A DNA stretch of 64,000 bases from Nitrospira tepida (GTDB lineage Bacteria > Nitrospirota > Nitrospiria > Nitrospirales > Nitrospiraceae): NCBI RefSeq assembly GCF_947241125.1, contig NZ_OX365700.1:558001-622000 (forward strand), read 5' to 3'. The notes under the pieces were generated by a model, which was given only the letters and a program-made list of their open reading frames with translations, was not told where the DNA came from and did no database searches. Of the stretch, positions 47,288 to 55,349 are shown piece by piece. Made by a program: the position numbers and the translations under genes. Numbering within the stretch: the first letter of the stretch is position 1; every line of letters begins with the position of its first letter.

Positions 47288-47734
47288 ATGTTAAGTAAGC
47301 GAATCCATTATGCCATTTTGGTCGTCATCGACCTGGCACTTTATGGGGGGATCAGCCCGATTCAGGCGAGGACCATCGCGCGACGACAATCCATCCCGGC
47401 GAGGTTTCTCGAACATGTCCTGAATGCGATGAAGCGAGCCGGACTGATCGAGAGCGTGCGCGGGGCGCAAGGCGGCTATCTCTTGGTCAAGCAGCCGGCC
47501 GAACTCTCTCTGGCGCAGATCGTTGAAGCGGTCGAAGGGCCGATCATGGGACGGACGGCGGCGCGGGGTCCGGCGCACCTGCACCGGCCGACTCAGATCG
47601 ACCTGCTTCTTCGGGTCGTCACGGAACGGCTTCGCCAGGCGGAAAACGACGTGCTCAACCGCATCACGCTCCAAGAACTGATCGATCGCTATCAAACCGC
47701 CCACCAGGCGGACAGCCAGATGTATCACATTTAA
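47288..47734 (+). CDS. Rrf2-family transcriptional regulator without Fe-S cysteines
   Basis: A 148-residue winged-helix regulator. MLSKRIHYAILVVIDLALYG is the Rrf2 N-terminus, and ARTIARRQSIPARFLEHVLNAMKRAGLIESVRGAQGGYLL is the helix-turn-helix and wing. The three cysteines of IscR/NsrR are absent, as in CymR, which represses cysteine genes through a partner enzyme. Its location before a sulfate assimilation operon suggests the same physiological role. The tail is unusually long for the family. Confidence 0.92.
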   Translation: MLSKRIHYAILVVIDLALYGGISPIQARTIARRQSIPARFLEHVLNAMKRAGLIESVRGAQGGYLLVKQPAELSLAQIVEAVEGPIMGRTAARGPAHLHRPTQIDLLLRVVTERLRQAENDVLNRITLQELIDRYQTAHQADSQMYHI

Positions 47735-47798: not shown

Positions 47799-50291
47799 AT
47801 GACCACAGCCACCATACAACGGGTGCCGGTGCAGACGGCCCCCATCCCCCAGAACATTCTCGAAGAGATTGAAGCGTTCGAAATCGAGGCGCAACGGGTT
47901 CTGTCGGGTGAACTGTCCGGCGATCTCTTCAAACCCTTCCGCCTCCAGCACGGCATTTACGGGCAGCGGCAACCCGGCGTCCAGATGTTTCGGATCAAAA
48001 TTCCCTTCGGAGGGCTGACCGGCAACCAACTGCGCCGGATCGCCGAGCTGGCCGACTTGTATACGACGGGGGTCGGCCATGTCACGACGCGGCAGGACAT
48101 TCAACTGCATTACGCCGAACTCAAACATGTGGGCACGATGATGCGAGGCCTGGCCGAAGTCGGTCTCACGACCAGGGAAGCCTGCGCCAACACGGTCCGC
48201 AACGTCACGGCCTGCCACCTGGCCGGAGTCTGCGCCGGAGAGGTGTTCGACGTCACGCCCTATGCGAAGACGGTCGCGTTGCATTTGTTGCGTAACCCGC
48301 TGAACCAGAGCCTGCCCCGGAAGTTCAAGATCGCCTTTTCCGGTTGCGCGCACGACTGCGCCCTTACCCCGATTCACGACATCGGGTTGCTCGCCGCCCG
48401 CCGCCCCAACGGCGAGATCGGCTTTCGGATGGTGGTTGGCGGAGGACTCGGCTCGACGCCGCGCCTCGCGCAGGTCCTGCGTGACTTCGTCCCGATGCCC
48501 GAACTGATTCCCACGATCGAAGCCGTGATCAAGGTCTTCGACCAACTCGGCAACCGGAAAAACCGCCATAAGGCGAGGATGAAGTTCGTCATCGACAAGC
48601 TGGGCTTCGAGGAGTTCAAGCGGCGCTGGGAAGAGGCCTATGTTTCGATGGGGCACGGCGTTCCCCGCACCGAACCCCTCCGCTTGCTGGACCATTGGGA
48701 TGAGCCGGGTCCGCTGATCATGCCGTCGAAGAACGGCGGGCAGGGCGGCGGCCATGGCAACGGCCATGTGCCGGGCATGCATCTCACGGAGGTCGAAGTT
48801 TATGATCGATGGAGACGCACCAACGTCTTGGCTCAGAAGCAGGCTGGCTATGCGGCCGTGTTCATCAAGCTGCCGATGGGGGACGCCACCGTCGATCAAA
48901 TGTACGTCCTGGCTGATGCCGCCGAGCAGTTCGCGAACGGCAATCTGCGGACCACGATCAGTCAGAATCTCATTATCCGCTGGGTGCCCGAATCGAAACT
49001 CCCCGCGCTCTACGACCTGCTCGCCGCCCATGGCTTGGCCGAGCCGGGTGCGGAACTCGTGGAGGACATCGTGGCCTGCCCGGGCACGGACACCTGCGGC
49101 CTCGGCATCACCTCGTCGAAGGGCTTGGCCAGAGCCCTGGCCGAAGTGTTCCCTGCCGGCTCTGTCCTGGACGATCTCAAGGGCACCAGCATCAAGATCA
49201 GCGGCTGCCACAATTCCTGCGCGCAGCACCACATTGCCACGATCGGGCTGCACGGAGTCGGCAAGCGCATCGGAGACCACACGGCTCCCCATTACGAACT
49301 CCACGTCGGCGGCGGGGTGAACGGCATGGCGCGTATCGGGCAACTGGTTGTCAAACTGCCGGCGAAGAACGTGCCGGCGGCGGTCTCGCACCTGGTCGAG
49401 GTGTTCCGTCGGGACCGCCAGGGAGAGGAAACGCTCCCGGCCTTTGTCGCCCGGGTCGGCAAATCCAAGCTGAAGGATGAATTGATTCCCCACACGATCC
49501 TCCCGTCGTTTGAAGAGGACCCGACCTACTACTACGACTGGGAGGGGGAGAAGGAATTTGTCCTGGAAGACTTGGGACCAGGGGAATGCGCCGGCGGCGC
49601 TCTGGAATTGATCGACAACCAGATGTTGGAGGCCGAGCAGGAGTTTTATCAGGCGAAGTTGCTGTTGGAAAAACATCAATATGCGGTGGCGGTCAACAAG
49701 GCCTATCGAGCCATCATCGCCTGCGCCAAGGCCCTGTTGGTCACGGAAGGGGTCGAGCCGGCAACCGATGCCGACACGTTCCGCGAGTTCGAAACCAGGC
49801 TGGCCAGCAAAGGCGTGATTCCCTCCGCCTACCGGAACTTGCAGGAGCGTTGCGGAGACCTCGGTCCGAAGGACGCCGGCGCCGAGTTCGCGCTGGCGCG
49901 GCTGGACTTTGCTAAGGGGTTCATCGAGGCCTGCCGCAACGCCACCGAAGGGATTGGGAAGGACCTGAAGCTGAAAGCGGCCGTGTCGGCGCCGTCTCCG
50001 ATCCAGGACGCACCAGAAGCGGTGGGGAACGGGGCGTCGGCGCAGGAGCCCTCTGCGGCGCCGGTCTATGATCTCCGCGGCGTTGCCTGTCCGATGAACT
50101 ATGTCAAGACCAAGCTCAAGCTGGAAATGATGGAGGCCGGCGAGCGGCTTGAAGTCTGGTTGGATGCCGGCGAGCCGATCCGGAATGTGCCGATGAGCCT
50201 GCGCAACGACGGCCATAAGGTCTTGTCGGAACAGCCCCTCGATCCAACCGCGGCACACTTCAAGATCCTGGTTGAGAAGGTGGAGACATGA
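47799..50291 (+). CDS. Siroheme sulfite/nitrite reductase fused to HEPN-like and TusA domains
   Basis: An 830-residue protein. Residues 1-570 are a ferredoxin-type sulfite/nitrite reductase with its two half-repeats joined by a glycine-rich hinge (GGQGGGHGNGH). The C-terminal half has the siroheme/4Fe-4S ligands Cys427, 433, 470 and 474. The N-terminal half carries an equivalent set, Cys139, 145, 183 and 187. A helical HEPN-like domain (about 607-717; FYQAKLLLEKHQYAVAVNKAYRAIIACAKALL) lacks the R-x4-6-H RNase motif. Residues about 753-830 are a TusA domain with the sulfur-carrier cysteine at 764 (RGVACPMNYVKTKL). The genome context favours sulfite as substrate, but nitrite is not excluded. 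Confidence 0.93.
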   Translation: MTTATIQRVPVQTAPIPQNILEEIEAFEIEAQRVLSGELSGDLFKPFRLQHGIYGQRQPGVQMFRIKIPFGGLTGNQLRRIAELADLYTTGVGHVTTRQDIQLHYAELKHVGTMMRGLAEVGLTTREACANTVRNVTACHLAGVCAGEVFDVTPYAKTVALHLLRNPLNQSLPRKFKIAFSGCAHDCALTPIHDIGLLAARRPNGEIGFRMVVGGGLGSTPRLAQVLRDFVPMPELIPTIEAVIKVFDQLGNRKNRHKARMKFVIDKLGFEEFKRRWEEAYVSMGHGVPRTEPLRLLDHWDEPGPLIMPSKNGGQGGGHGNGHVPGMHLTEVEVYDRWRRTNVLAQKQAGYAAVFIKLPMGDATVDQMYVLADAAEQFANGNLRTTISQNLIIRWVPESKLPALYDLLAAHGLAEPGAELVEDIVACPGTDTCGLGITSSKGLARALAEVFPAGSVLDDLKGTSIKISGCHNSCAQHHIATIGLHGVGKRIGDHTAPHYELHVGGGVNGMARIGQLVVKLPAKNVPAAVSHLVEVFRRDRQGEETLPAFVARVGKSKLKDELIPHTILPSFEEDPTYYYDWEGEKEFVLEDLGPGECAGGALELIDNQMLEAEQEFYQAKLLLEKHQYAVAVNKAYRAIIACAKALLVTEGVEPATDADTFREFETRLASKGVIPSAYRNLQERCGDLGPKDAGAEFALARLDFAKGFIEACRNATEGIGKDLKLKAAVSAPSPIQDAPEAVGNGASAQEPSAAPVYDLRGVACPMNYVKTKLKLEMMEAGERLEVWLDAGEPIRNVPMSLRNDGHKVLSEQPLDPTAAHFKILVEKVET

Positions 50292-50430: not shown

Positions 50431-51150
50431 ATGACAGAGACAGTCAGACCATCGGAGAGCGAGCTGAAGGATCTGAGCGACTCGTTCGAGTCGAGACAGC
50501 CGTGGGAGGTGCTGGCCGAGGTGCTGCCGCGCTACGCGCCACGGATCGTCCTGGCCTGTAGCTTCGGGGTGGAAGACGTCGCCTTGATCGACATGATCCA
50601 CCGGATCGACCCGGCTACGCCGCTGTTTTACCTGGATACGGATTTTCTGTTTCCGGAGACCCACGAGGTACGGGACCGCGTGATCGAGCGGTACGGGCTC
50701 AAGTCCGAGCAGGTCATCCGGATGAGGCCGCTGTTGACGCCCGAGGCCCAAGCCCGTCAATACGGCGAAGCCCTGTGGGATCAGGGACCGGAGGGGGCCG
50801 ACCGCTGCTGCGGCCTGCGCAAAATCGAGCCGCTGACGCGCGTGCTGAAAGATTATCGGGCCTGGATCACCGGCATTCGGCGGGACCAGGCTCCAACACG
50901 GGCCGGGGCCGGCATCATCGAGTGGGATCGGAAATTCGAGTTGGTCAAGGTGAACCCGCTGGCCCGGTGGACCAGCGACGAGGTGTGGACCTACGTCCGT
51001 CTGCACGACGTGCCCTACAATGTCCTTCACGACCGGAATTATCCCAGCATCGGCTGCACCCATTGCACCGCTCCGGTGGGCAACGGGGAGGATCCGCGCT
51101 CCGGCCGGTGGAGACATCTCGGCAAGACCGAGTGCGGGCTCCACAAGTAA
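50431..51150 (+). CDS. cysH: Adenylyl-sulfate (APS) reductase, CysH family, 4Fe-4S type
   Basis: Reduces APS to sulfite using thioredoxin. The 239-residue protein has the PP-loop-like ACSFGVEDVALIDM, the cysteine pair RCCGLRKIEPL, GIRRDQAPTRA, and SIGCTHCTAPVG. The CC...CxxC pattern ligates a 4Fe-4S cluster and marks APS-type rather than PAPS-type enzymes. The C-terminal catalytic cysteine is in KTECGLHK. It forms part of the sulfur operon after the reductase fusion. Confidence 0.95.
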   Translation: MTETVRPSESELKDLSDSFESRQPWEVLAEVLPRYAPRIVLACSFGVEDVALIDMIHRIDPATPLFYLDTDFLFPETHEVRDRVIERYGLKSEQVIRMRPLLTPEAQARQYGEALWDQGPEGADRCCGLRKIEPLTRVLKDYRAWITGIRRDQAPTRAGAGIIEWDRKFELVKVNPLARWTSDEVWTYVRLHDVPYNVLHDRNYPSIGCTHCTAPVGNGEDPRSGRWRHLGKTECGLHK

Positions 51151-51203: not shown

Positions 51204-51617
51204 GTGAAAAAACTTGCCGTGCTCATCACCAGCGGGGCCTACAACCGGTTGCTGCAAGCTCTGGAGTTCGCGGGGGTTGCCACGCAGCATGGGGTGCAGG
51301 TCAGTGTGCTCTTCCGAGATGAAGCGGTCTCCCGCATGACCAAGGATAAAGTCCGCGACATCCCGTTTTCGGACGCCTATCGCGGACGCGAAACGCGGGT
51401 GAAGAATCTGTTGAAAGAGCAACAGCGGCACGATCTGGCGGCGCTGATGCGGGAGATGAAGGAACGAGGAGACGTGAAGATGTCGATCTGCCGGGATTCG
51501 TTGGCCTACTTCGACATCACCGTGGATCAAATCATCGCGGAGATCGACGAAGTGCAGGGTCTGGATGTCTTTTGGAAAGAGGAGGTCGGCACGGCCGACC
51601 AAGTGGTGGCGTTTTAA
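51204..51617 (+). CDS. DsrE/DsrF-like sulfur-relay family protein
   Basis: A 137-residue cytoplasmic protein with the DsrE fold: KKLAVLITSGAYNRLLQALEFAGVATQHGVQVSVLFRDEAV, then DVKMSICRDSLAYFDI. A single cysteine at about residue 97 is in the position used for persulfide binding in several family members. The start is GTG; the AGAGGG upstream is acceptable. Its stop overlaps the next gene's start (TAATG). A sulfur-transfer role with TusA is inferred from context. Confidence 0.85.
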   Translation: MKKLAVLITSGAYNRLLQALEFAGVATQHGVQVSVLFRDEAVSRMTKDKVRDIPFSDAYRGRETRVKNLLKEQQRHDLAALMREMKERGDVKMSICRDSLAYFDITVDQIIAEIDEVQGLDVFWKEEVGTADQVVAF

Positions 51618-52675
51618 TGCAGGCGTTCATCGCCAAAGTGGGCAAGGGGGCCAAGACCGCCAAGGATTTGACCTGGGATGAGGCCAAACAGGCGATGGGT
51701 CTCCTGATCGAGGGATCGGCCACGCCGGCCCAGGCCGGCGCCTTCTTGATGGCCATGCGAATGAAAGGGGAATCGGTGGGGGAATTGGCCGCTTTTACCG
51801 CGGTGGCGCGCCAATATGTTTTGCCGCTGTCCGGCCTCTCCGGGCTCAAGATGGTGGACGTGCCCTGTTATGCGGGCAAGCGAGACACCTTCTACGCGGT
51901 CGTCGGCGCGGCCATCATCGCGGCTGCGGCCGGAGCATCCGTGCTGATGCATGGGTGGGAAGGGACGCCGGAGCGGCCCGGACCCTGGTCTGTGCTGGGA
52001 CGTTTGGGCATTTCCACCGACCTTGGACCGGCGGAGGTGAGCGAGACTTTGGCAAGCAAGGGGTTCGCCTATCTGGACATGGCGATTTACCATCCGCCGT
52101 TGGCGCGGTTTCTTGATTTGCGCCGGGAGCTGGGACTGCGGAATTTTTTTCATCCGGTGGCGCGGCTGATCAATCCGGCGCGGGCCCGTTGCCAGTTGAT
52201 CGGCATGGCCCATCCGCCCTATTGCGATAAGACGGTGGAAGCCTTGAATATGTTGGGCGCGCCGCATGCGTTGGTCATGCGAGGGGTGGAGGGAGAGCCG
52301 GAACTGTCGATCGCGTCCCTGACCCGGTTCGTCGAGTTGCGCGACGGCAGACTCATTCCCACCACGCTCCATCCGAAGGATGTCGGTTTGCCGCTGGGCA
52401 CGAGCCGCGACATGGCCGGCTTTGCCCCGTCGCTGCGGGACCAGGAGGCCGCGCTGCTCGTGAAAATTCTCCAGGGCGAAGTGAAGGGTGGTCCTCGGGA
52501 TTGGGTGGTGCTCAACGCTGCCATGCTGCTCTACGCAAGCGGCGTGACGCCGTCGATGGTCGCGGGGGTGCCGCTGGCGAACCAGACGATCGATCGCGGA
52601 GCGGCCCGCGACAAACTGCGGCTGTTGGCGCAAATGGGTACAGCCTCGGCCGCCTCGCGATTGCGCGCGAGCTAG
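51617..52675 (+). CDS. Anthranilate phosphoribosyltransferase-like protein (TrpD2/YbiB type)
   Basis: A 352-residue member of the glycosyltransferase family 3. The N-terminal helical domain (DEAKQAMGLLIEGSATPAQAGAFLMAMRMKGESVGELAAF) and the alpha/beta domain with MVDVPCYAGKRDTFYAVVGAAIIAAAAGASVLMHGWEG are those of TrpD. The PRPP-site glycine-rich signature of true TrpD (GTGGD) is altered to PCYAGK, and DRGAARDKL lies near the end. TrpD2 proteins such as YbiB bind nucleic acids instead of making tryptophan. Its place in a sulfur operon is unexplained. It overlaps the DsrE stop by one base. Confidence 0.85.
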   Translation: MQAFIAKVGKGAKTAKDLTWDEAKQAMGLLIEGSATPAQAGAFLMAMRMKGESVGELAAFTAVARQYVLPLSGLSGLKMVDVPCYAGKRDTFYAVVGAAIIAAAAGASVLMHGWEGTPERPGPWSVLGRLGISTDLGPAEVSETLASKGFAYLDMAIYHPPLARFLDLRRELGLRNFFHPVARLINPARARCQLIGMAHPPYCDKTVEALNMLGAPHALVMRGVEGEPELSIASLTRFVELRDGRLIPTTLHPKDVGLPLGTSRDMAGFAPSLRDQEAALLVKILQGEVKGGPRDWVVLNAAMLLYASGVTPSMVAGVPLANQTIDRGAARDKLRLLAQMGTASAASRLRAS

Positions 52676-52705: not shown

Positions 52706-53503
52706 ATGAAACATCTCCGGCAATTGGAAGATCAGAGCGTCTTTATTCTCCGCGAGGCCTACAAGCATTTCGACAACCTGGCCATGCTCTGGTCGATGGG
52801 GAAGGATTCGACGGTGCTGTTGTGGCTCGCGCGCAAGGCCTTTTTCGGGCACGTGCCGTTTCCCCTGCTCCATGTGGATACGAGTTACAAGATCCCGGCC
52901 ATGATCGAATACCGCGACCGGTTGGCCCGCGAATGGCGGCTCAACCTGGTTGTGGGACAGAATAAGGAAGCCTTGGCGGCCGGCATGAACCATACATTGG
53001 GGCGGCAGGTCTGCTGCACGGCCTTGAAAACCAACGGGCTGAAGCAGCTTATCGAGAAGCATGGCTACACGGGAATCATTCTTGGTGTTCGGGCTGACGA
53101 GGAGGCCACCAGGGCCAAGGAACGGTACTTTTCTCCCCGCGACAAGCACGGCGAATGGGACTTCCGTGAGCAGCCGCCCGAACTCTGGGACCAGTTCAAG
53201 ACCTCCTTTCCGGCCGGGACACACATTCGCATCCATCCGCTGCTGGATTGGACCGAGATCAATATCTGGGAATACATCAAGCTGGAGAACATCCCCTTCA
53301 TCGACCTCTATCTGGATAAGGGGGAGGGCATCCGCTATCGCAGCCTGGGCTGCGCCCCCTGCACGTTCCCGATCAAATCTACCGCCAAGACCGTCGATGA
53401 CATCATCGACGAGTTGCGATGCACCAAGACAGCGGAGCGGGCGGGCCGTGCACAGGACGAAGGGCGGGGGATGGAGATGTTGCGCAAAGACGGATACATG
53501 TGA
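52706..53503 (+). CDS. cysD: Sulfate adenylyltransferase small subunit
   Basis: It works with the CysN GTPase to form APS from sulfate and ATP. The 265-residue protein has the PP-loop variant [18 protein letters not shown], the ICCTALKT-like segment [34 protein letters not shown] and the C-terminal [11 protein letters not shown]. It is slightly shorter than E. coli CysD (302). It precedes cysN by seven bases. Confidence 0.95.
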
Positions 53504-53510
53504 GCCGATT

Positions 53511-55349
53511 ATGACTACCGCGACCGATACTCACGTTTCTCAGGCCCATTTGAATATCGTCATCGTCGGCCACGTGGACCATGGCAAATCGACCTTGGTC
53601 GGCCGCCTCTACGCCGATACCGGCTCGCTGCCGGACGGCAAGTTGGAAAAGGTGCAGGCGATCTGCCGCCAGCAGGGCAAGGAATTCGAGTATGCCTTTC
53701 TTTTCGATGCCTTTCTGGAGGAACAGGAACAGGGAATCACGATCGACACGGCCCGCACGTTCTTCTCGTGGAAGAACCGGCAGTACATCATCATCGACGC
53801 CCCGGGCCACAAGGAGTTTCTCAAGAACATGGTGTCGGGCGCCGCACGGGCGGAAGCGGCTCTGCTGCTGATCGATGCCCATGAGGGCGTCAAGGAGCAG
53901 TCCAAGAAGCACGGCTATCTCCTGTCCCTGCTCGGCGTGAAACAGGTGGCGGTGGTCGTGAACAAGATGGACCTGGCTGACTACAGCCAGGATACCTTCG
54001 CCCGCATCGAACAGGAGTACAGCGAGTTTCTGGCGCAACTAAGAGTGAAGCCGCAGCGGTTCATCCCCGTCAGCGCCAAGCTGGGCGACAATATCGCGCA
54101 GCCGAGCGCGCACATGCCCTGGTACAGCGGCCCGACCGTGCTTCAAACGCTGGAGTCGTTCACCAAAGAGACCGCCCGCGAGCAGCAGCCGCTCCGGTTT
54201 CCGGTGCAGGACGTCTACAAGTTCGACGCCCGGCGCATCCTGGCCGGCCGCATTGCCAGCGGCGTGCTCAAGGTCGGCGACCGGCTCTTGTTCTCTCCCT
54301 CCAACAAGTCCGCGGTGGTGCGGACGGTGGAGGCCTTCAATGTCGATCCCGTTCCGACAGAAGCGCGCGCCGGCCAATCCACCGGCATCACACTGGATGA
54401 GCAGATCTTCGTCGAGCGGGGCGAGATGGCGTCCCATCAGGAAACCGTGCCTCAGGTCTCGACGCTGATCCGATGTAATCTGTTCTGGATGGGACGGAGG
54501 CCGCTGGAGATCGGGCGGAAGTATCTCCTGCGTCTGGCCACGCGGGAGGTGGACTGCGAGGTCGCGACCATCCACCGTATCATCGACACGCAGGATCTGG
54601 ATGCCAAACAGATCCACACCTCGGTCGGCCGGAACGAAGTCGCCGAGCTGACCATCCGGACCAAATCACCGATCGCGTTCGATCGTTACTCGGATTCCGA
54701 TGTCACCGGACGGTTCGTGCTCGTGGACCAGTATGACGTGTCCGGCGGCGGCATCATCACCGAGGGGCTCCAGGACGACCAGACCCAGCTCCGCGAGGAG
54801 GCTCGGCGGCGTGATATCGCCTGGGTCAAGGGGGACGTGAGCCCGGACGAGCGGGCCTCGCTGTTCGGGCACCGGGCGGCGATGGTCCTGATCACCGGAG
54901 GGGCGCATGCCGGCAAATCCTTCCTGGCCCGCCGGTTGGAAGTCCGCCTGATCGCCGAGGGACGGCACGCCTATTTGCTGGACGGGCAGAATCTCCGGCA
55001 CGGGCTCGACAGCGACGTGCGGGACGAAGATGTGAAGGAAAAGGAATTGGTCCGGCGGTTCGGCGAAGTGGCCCGGCTGTTCACGGATGCCGGCCTGATC
55101 GTGATTTCGACGACCAACACCTTCAGCCGGGCCGACCATCAGGATGTCCGGACCTTGGTCCAGCCGACGCCGGTGATCACCGTGCACCTGTCCAATCAAC
55201 CGGAGGAGCCGCCGCCGGGCACCGATGTGTCGTTTGCCGGTCCTAAGGATTTTGAGGCTATCGCCAAGCAGATCATCGCCGAGCTGAAGGACCGAGGAAT
55301 TCTCTCCCATCAGGGGGGAGGAACGCCCTCTCCGCAGTATTCCATTTGA
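53511..55349 (+). CDS. cysN: Sulfate adenylyltransferase large subunit (GTPase) fused to degenerate APS kinase domain
   Basis: Residues about 1-430 are the EF-Tu-like GTPase: GHVDHGKST (G1), [11 protein letters not shown] (G3), NKMDLADY (G4) and the following beta-barrel domains. From about 445 a CysC-like domain follows, with GGAHAGKS as P-loop and [13 protein letters not shown]. The APS-kinase lid containing the RDPKGLY-like motif is missing; the sequence passes to [23 protein letters not shown] and ends at 612. Kinase activity is therefore doubtful, which fits the APS-type CysH that needs no PAPS. The frame is open upstream to 53061 inside cysD; ATG 53511 is the start. Confidence 0.93.

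Follow-up and report, generated by a model that had tools for sequence, protein, structure and literature searches.

Which reaction is carried out by a sulfite reductase (SiR) that bears a sulfur-carrier domain on the same chain, and where does its reduced sulfur go? The question is raised by a gene of Nitrospira tepida within a stretch of 64,000 nucleotides (contig NZ_OX365700.1, positions 558,001 to 622,000; hereafter the window, in whose numbering coordinates are given unless stated otherwise). A sequence-only reading of the window had described the product as a siroheme reductase joined to HEPN-like and TusA domains, and had suggested that the tethered carrier channels the product and that a second siroheme might be bound. 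Here we follow up that reading with profile searches, structure models and comparisons across genomes.

A single chain of sulfite reductase, HEPN and TusA

The gene has no internal stop across its 830 codons, which lie in one frame (Table 1), and its source genome is a single contig of 4.73 Mb. Pfam NIR_SIR (E = 6.6e-60) and NIR_SIR_ferr (E = 9.5e-36) were each matched in two stretches of the 830-residue protein, the doubling of both domain types that is expected of an assimilatory siroheme SiR. In an AlphaFold2 model (mean pLDDT 81; our structure models are protein chains without cofactors), residues 22–559 resembled solved siroheme reductases (Z 30–35), residues 599–720 matched the HEPN protein 2hsb (Z 16.5, 2.5 Å over 119 residues) and residues 750–828 matched TusA folds (Z 12–13; 3lvj, Z 12.0). 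Profile searches agreed for both appended domains, with HEPN spanning residues 611–665 (E = 3e-6, above the curated cut-off) and TusA spanning residues 757–827 (E = 2.5e-16). The cysteines at 139/145/183/187, 427/433/470/474 and 764 all stand where the sequence-only reading had placed them, both CX5C…CX3C sets included.

An assembly error or frameshift joining separate genes was ruled out by full-length copies within the family and beyond it. A match was present in 60 of 60 sampled family genomes, 50 of which carry the fusion full length and in a single frame at 70–77% identity (72% in the named relative Candidatus Nitrospira defluvii), the other ten mostly ending at contig edges; full-length fusions at 43–51% identity occur in other classes of Nitrospirota. 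The gene product is a siroheme SiR followed by a HEPN-fold domain and TusA, and is no artefact.

Table 1 Features of the fusion gene, its operon and a thiocarboxylate-carrier operon of the same genome (window coordinates, except in the last row)
Feature	Coordinates	Strand	Basis and remarks
Rrf2-family regulator (IscR/CymR-like)	47288..47734	+	next upstream gene; Pfam Rrf2 4e-31; conserved neighbour
SiR–HEPN–TusA fusion gene	47799..50291	+	one open frame, 830 aa; Pfam domains; family conservation
N-terminal SiR half, residues ~44-285	47928..48653	+	Pfam; holds R65, R98, R134, K175, K177 and the second cysteine set
N-half cluster motif C139-X5-C145...C183-X3-C187	48213..48359	+	complete in 108/130 homologues
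C-terminal SiR half, residues ~335-560	48801..49478	+	Pfam; homologous to N-half
C-half siroheme-[4Fe-4S] motif C427-X5-C433...C470-X3-C474	49077..49220	+	catalytic cluster; invariant in 130/130 homologues
C-terminal SiR extension, residues 561-600	49479..49598	+	ends GPGEC(597)AGG; Cys597 codon 49587-49589
HEPN-fold domain, residues 601-720	49599..49958	+	Pfam E 3e-6; 2hsb match; without RNase motif
TusA domain, residues 754-828	50058..50282	+	active Cys764 in CPMN; Pfam; fold match
CysH, assimilatory (P)APS reductase	50431..51150	+	Pfam 4.7e-50; NCBIfam PRK02090 above cut-off
DsrE-like protein	51204..51617	+	Pfam DsrE 9e-11; conserved cysteine in SICRDS; only in part of family
TrpD-like phosphoribosyltransferase	51572-52675		just below trpD cut-off
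CysD, sulfate adenylyltransferase small subunit	52706..53503	+	NCBIfam PRK05253 1.8e-109
CysN fused to APS kinase	53517..55349 (start approximate)	+	NCBIfam PRK05506 2.6e-148, from ORF residue 153
ThiS – CysM-like – ThiF – threonine synthase-like – MoaD – NIL – ThiF – JAB operon	C1:2305889-2311098 (L151:4889-10098)	minus	same genome

The gene belongs to a sulfate-assimilation operon

The surrounding genes run in the order Rrf2, SiR fusion, cysH, DsrE-like, TrpD-like, cysD and cysN–APS kinase; this arrangement is shared throughout Nitrospirales, only some of which have the DsrE gene. The encoded CysH carries CC/CxxC and a C-terminal TECGLHK, and the Rrf2 gene matched the CymR model at 7.9e-25, below that model's cut-off. 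None of the genes of the operon was recognised as encoding a flavoprotein subunit. That the 830-residue protein is an assimilatory siroheme SiR within a sulfate-assimilation operon is well supported.

A short APS-kinase match had raised the suspicion of a frameshift in cysNC, but this was ruled out when the gene was set against N. defluvii and others. In nearly all the Nitrospirales examined, the TrpD-like gene is part of the cys operon. At eight loci from other classes of the phylum (L041–L045, L047, L048 and L052), AprA/AprB-like genes, recognised by eye, were found near the SiR gene, mostly together with an Rrf2 regulator; cysH was not detected there.

One catalytic site, and a second cysteine set that decays

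Family members were sampled in order of similarity to the 830-residue protein, so divergent ones are under-represented in the sample. Around the C-half site, R65, R98, R134, K175 and K177 were invariant in 129 of 129 homologues in which the region was present. Matched through our own alignments to residues in the literature, these include the two arginines and two lysines by which Fsr binds sulfite, a set conserved among sulfite reductases, and an arginine, here R98, that marks assimilatory enzymes and is replaced by threonine in DsrA (PMC10229431). Neither the CXnCCX3C motif of DsrAB nor its threonine was found, the protein having CX5C…CX3C and Arg98 instead. K177 aligns with Asn226 of tobacco nitrite reductase (3vlx being the N226K mutant), and a separate NirA of the same genome has Asn there, as plant nitrite reductases do; the protein under study thus has the sulfite-binding set of two Arg and two Lys, with Lys at the nitrite reductase 226 position. 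From what is known of the family, the siroheme-[4Fe-4S] centre would sit on C427/C433/C470/C474 and sulfite would be held by R65, R134, K175 and K177 of the other half. Catalysis of this kind is well supported, and sulfite reduction for assimilation is strongly expected from the families to which the sequence belongs.

Two further residues are nearly invariant: Y54 (codon 47958-47960) is Tyr in 129 of 129 homologues covering the position and C129 (codon 48183-48185) is Cys in 125 of 129. C129 had gone unremarked in the sequence-only reading. The two residues align with the Tyr and Cys that are cross-linked beside the siroheme in Mycobacterium tuberculosis NirA (1zj8).

Could the N-half cysteines hold a second working siroheme, as the sequence-only reading had suggested? 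All four are present in 108 of 130 homologues, which speaks for such a site, but 11 lack them entirely and the remainder, one of them truncated, have a partial set; relatives with a missing or partial set still keep every catalytic residue. The two halves of SiR are homologous (hhalign probability 99.7) and mirror-image positions can therefore be read across; those facing the N-half cysteines, F355, S388, E422, G462 and S464, all vary freely, so that the N-half cysteines face no conserved sulfite-binding pocket. On a tree of 88 SiR sequences (quick method, midpoint root, some long branches) the set changed state about 10 times. These observations do not support a second working siroheme, which we consider very improbable; judged from the alignments, the C-terminal cluster is the only one that can be part of a working site.

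Since it is kept in most members yet has repeatedly decayed, the N-half set looks like a relic or a structural cluster, as in DsrA, and probably represents a non-catalytic cluster inherited from a duplicated ancestor. Assimilatory SiRs arose by duplication and fusion, after which one cluster motif was lost (PMC10229431); a second motif is what would be expected of the duplicated ancestor, and it has been lost from the assimilatory enzymes studied. The loss that is usual in assimilatory enzymes has not occurred here, C139, C145, C183 and C187 all being present, and a set that is retained but often decaying fits an intermediate stage of that loss. As N-half loss is typical of the assimilatory SiRs studied (PMC10229431) and not strictly defining, we regard this SiR as a variant of that group and not as an outsider.

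An invariant cysteine at the end of the reductase

The reductase ends in an extension of about 40 residues. Its Cys597, within the motif GxGEC[A/S], is the residue that a channelling model would depend on, and the sequence-only reading had overlooked it. Cys597 is invariant in 130 of 130 homologues, more constrained than the N-half cluster, and its equivalent is the third-last residue in 29 of 29 relatives without HEPN; a conserved cysteine near a flexible C-terminus, the arrangement of DsrC, is thus found in every one of these core-only proteins. All tail-bearing SiRs formed one clade with SH-aLRT 100 in our quick, midpoint-rooted tree. In a second sample, of Acidobacteria only, clade SiRs that reach the C-terminus carried the tail and distant NirA-like ones were without it.

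No solved structure was found that covers the extension, and no profile match ran past position 546 of 587. In a core-only model, pLDDT was 84–85 over the 20 residues preceding the tail and 61 over the final six; in the 830-residue model pLDDT fell below 50 at residues 591–595 and 597–600. Low predicted confidence over the last six residues is as expected of a flexible arm.

The position and flexibility of this arm raise the possibility of a full DsrC-like mechanism, in which reduction would halt at S(0) and a Cys597 persulfide or Cys597–Cys764 trisulfide would be freed by a separate reductant, much as a dissimilatory SiR passes its intermediate to DsrC (PMC10229431). We think this unlikely, as Arg98 and the cluster motif are of the assimilatory and not the Dsr type, and core-only relatives have a single conserved tail cysteine per SiR, not two. 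The likeness of the Cys597 arm to those of DsrC and APS reductase is one of resemblance, not homology.

HEPN and TusA are absent from simpler relatives

The HEPN part of the 830-residue protein has no Rx4-6H in a motif scan, as the sequence-only reading had noted; the motif occurs somewhere in 24 of 105 relatives but at no conserved place. A HEPN RNase or toxin role was rejected for want of a conserved motif. The active cysteine of TusA is retained in 94 of 94 fused copies, all of which have CPxN in place of CPxP (here CPMN, 50088-50099). A stand-alone TusA of the same genome (L152:3667-3936) has CPYN, likewise CPxN.

In a scan of named genomes, the three-part SiR–HEPN–TusA protein was found in Nitrospirota, Poribacteria, Nitrospinota, Armatimonadetes, Persephonella and one Bacillota bin. 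Bacteroidota, among others, have SiR–HEPN without fused TusA, and the reductase stands alone in Acidobacteria, Omnitrophota, Methylomirabilota, Chloroflexi, Planctomycetota, Myxococcales and Actinomycetota. The SiR tree shows about 3 gains or losses of HEPN, which simpler relatives lack, and many tail-bearing relatives are without fused TusA. At two loci a separate TusA gene follows the SiR–HEPN gene, 44 bp (L051) or 8 bp (L096) downstream.

Candidate acceptors encoded elsewhere in the genome

The components expected of a protein-thiocarboxylate pathway of cysteine or homocysteine synthesis (ThiS/MoaD, ThiF, JAB and a PLP-dependent synthase) are present in the genome, in an operon about 1.7 Mb from the SiR gene (Table 1). 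Both of its ThiF copies match ThiF alone and are too short to include a rhodanese domain. ThiF of this kind was found in 37 of 41 family genomes and 22 of 22 genera, mostly as pairs about 2.7 kb apart. In Poribacteria, Omnitrophota, Methylomirabilota and Bacillota the SiR gene has ThiF, JAB or ThiS genes as neighbours. JAB scored over its cut-off in 24 of the 29 organisms with a SiR of this clade versus 7 of 14 controls, a weak enrichment; it was missing from three Bacteroidota relatives. Operons combining sulfite reductase, SirA (TusA), ThiS/MoaD, JAB and a rhodanese-less E1 were described by Iyer et al. in 2006, who proposed that SirA replaces the missing rhodanese and also reported ThiS fused to sulfite reductase (PMC1779556).

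Two Acidobacteria (L212 and L214) encode NirA-like SiRs with a C-terminal ThiS/MoaD-like domain of ~73 residues ending in GG, recognised by eye; this is a separate fusion of SiR to a sulfur carrier. In Wolinella, bisulfide from Sir is reportedly used to make HcyS thiocarboxylate.

A putative relay of protein-bound sulfur

A carrier domain together with a never-varying cysteine on a flexible arm suggests hand-over of protein-bound sulfur. Sulfite would be reduced for assimilation at the single C-half siroheme-[4Fe-4S] site, and Cys597, on an arm that in simpler relatives is the natural C-terminus, would reach the active site or its exit as first acceptor of the reduced sulfur. Cys764 of the tethered TusA would then accept it from Cys597, with HEPN as a spacer or docking part between SiR and TusA, and TusA would feed final carriers such as ThiS/MoaD of the ThiF–JAB–CysM operon, so that not all sulfur would be released as free sulfide. 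The sequence-only reading stands in part: transfer of protein-bound sulfur is plausible, being supported by TusA fused or adjacent to SiR and by the carrier operon in the genome and strengthened by the conserved Cys597, while its second siroheme is not supported.

In favour of the relay from Cys597 to Cys764 and ThiS/MoaD, which we infer from these parts, are the place of SiR in the cys operon, the invariant catalytic arginines and lysines and the presence of one site only; the invariance of Cys597, its fixed third-last place and the full support of the tail clade; and the fused or adjacent TusA, the ThiS–ThiF–JAB operon and the published operons of like content. Against it are the distance between SiR and the ThiS operon, the many tail-bearing relatives without fused TusA and the three Bacteroidota relatives without JAB.

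The chief objection concerns the chemistry. HS- is the product that canonical assimilatory SiRs release, and persulfide formation needs sulfur at the S(0) level; an assimilatory site such as this one would be expected to reach HS-, and its CX5C…CX3C motif and Arg98 argue for full six-electron reduction and hence against the relay. Alternatively, the arm may serve to keep the product close to TusA or to protect it, or may come into play only when electrons are in short supply.

The same active site (PMC10229431) would suit an ordinary assimilatory SiR that gives out free sulfide, with TusA and HEPN stabilising or regulatory and Cys597 structural or redox-regulatory (for example, an oxidation-sensing disulfide). 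Relatives without HEPN and TusA exist, and the CysM-like enzyme of the genome could take up free sulfide. Yet Cys597 is as invariant as the cluster ligands and in many phyla lies at a constant number of residues from the C-terminus, and the carrier domain retains its active cysteine in every fused copy, which together exceed the needs of stabilisation; we regard this explanation as possible but doubtful. To an assimilatory SiR that passes protein-bound sulfur through Cys597 and Cys764 of TusA towards thiocarboxylate-based cysteine synthesis we give an even chance. A bolder form, in which a DsrC-like arm is at work throughout the clade and sulfur is relayed covalently, in the Nitrospira branch via the CPxN TusA, to ubiquitin-like thiocarboxylate carriers with no free sulfide, is offered only tentatively.

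Comparison with known systems

The protein shares the fused double-half fold of E. coli CysI, maize SiR, M. tuberculosis NirA (1zj8) and plant nitrite reductase and, as in assimilatory enzymes generally, has the C-half siroheme-[4Fe-4S] motif and the R/R/K/K substrate residues. Unlike them it retains a second cluster motif in the N-half and adds the extension ending in GEC, HEPN and TusA. With DsrAB and DsrC it has in common one working and possibly one structural cluster site, and a cysteine on a flexible C-terminal arm that may accept sulfur; it differs in carrying arm and carrier on one chain, in its assimilatory-type motif and Arg98 and in its assimilatory operon, and we claim no sequence relation between the arm and DsrC. 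The TusA domain has the fold and active cysteine of E. coli TusA and YeeD but CPxN for CPxP, and is fused to SiR. Linkage or fusion of SiR to a sulfur carrier recalls the ThiS/MoaD–SiR–SirA operons and ThiS–SiR fusions, in which the fused carrier is ThiS/MoaD (PMC1779556), whereas here it is TusA, joined through HEPN, on a different SiR clade. The ECGLH arm of CysH (APS/PAPS reductase), whose gene is adjacent here, likewise has Glu-Cys near a flexible C-terminus, but on an unrelated fold, so that the likeness is one of appearance only.

Implications for sulfur assimilation

Our search found no paper naming a SiR–HEPN–TusA fusion or the tail cysteine; subscription reviews lay outside that search, so a prior mention is possible. 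Assimilatory SiRs release sulfide and dissimilatory SiRs pass sulfur on to a carrier arm, and the two are commonly seen as opposites. In the Cys597 clade an active site of the assimilatory type occurs together with a second cluster motif that has been retained and a C-terminal cysteine that never varies, and one protein thereby poses two testable questions: how the loss of the second siroheme site came about, and whether protein-bound sulfur can sustain assimilation. For Nitrospira, nitrite-oxidising bacteria that are key nitrifiers of soil and drinking water, it offers a concrete sulfur route. If the bolder form of the relay is true, sulfate assimilation would run without free sulfide in a widespread, undescribed clade of sulfite reductases.
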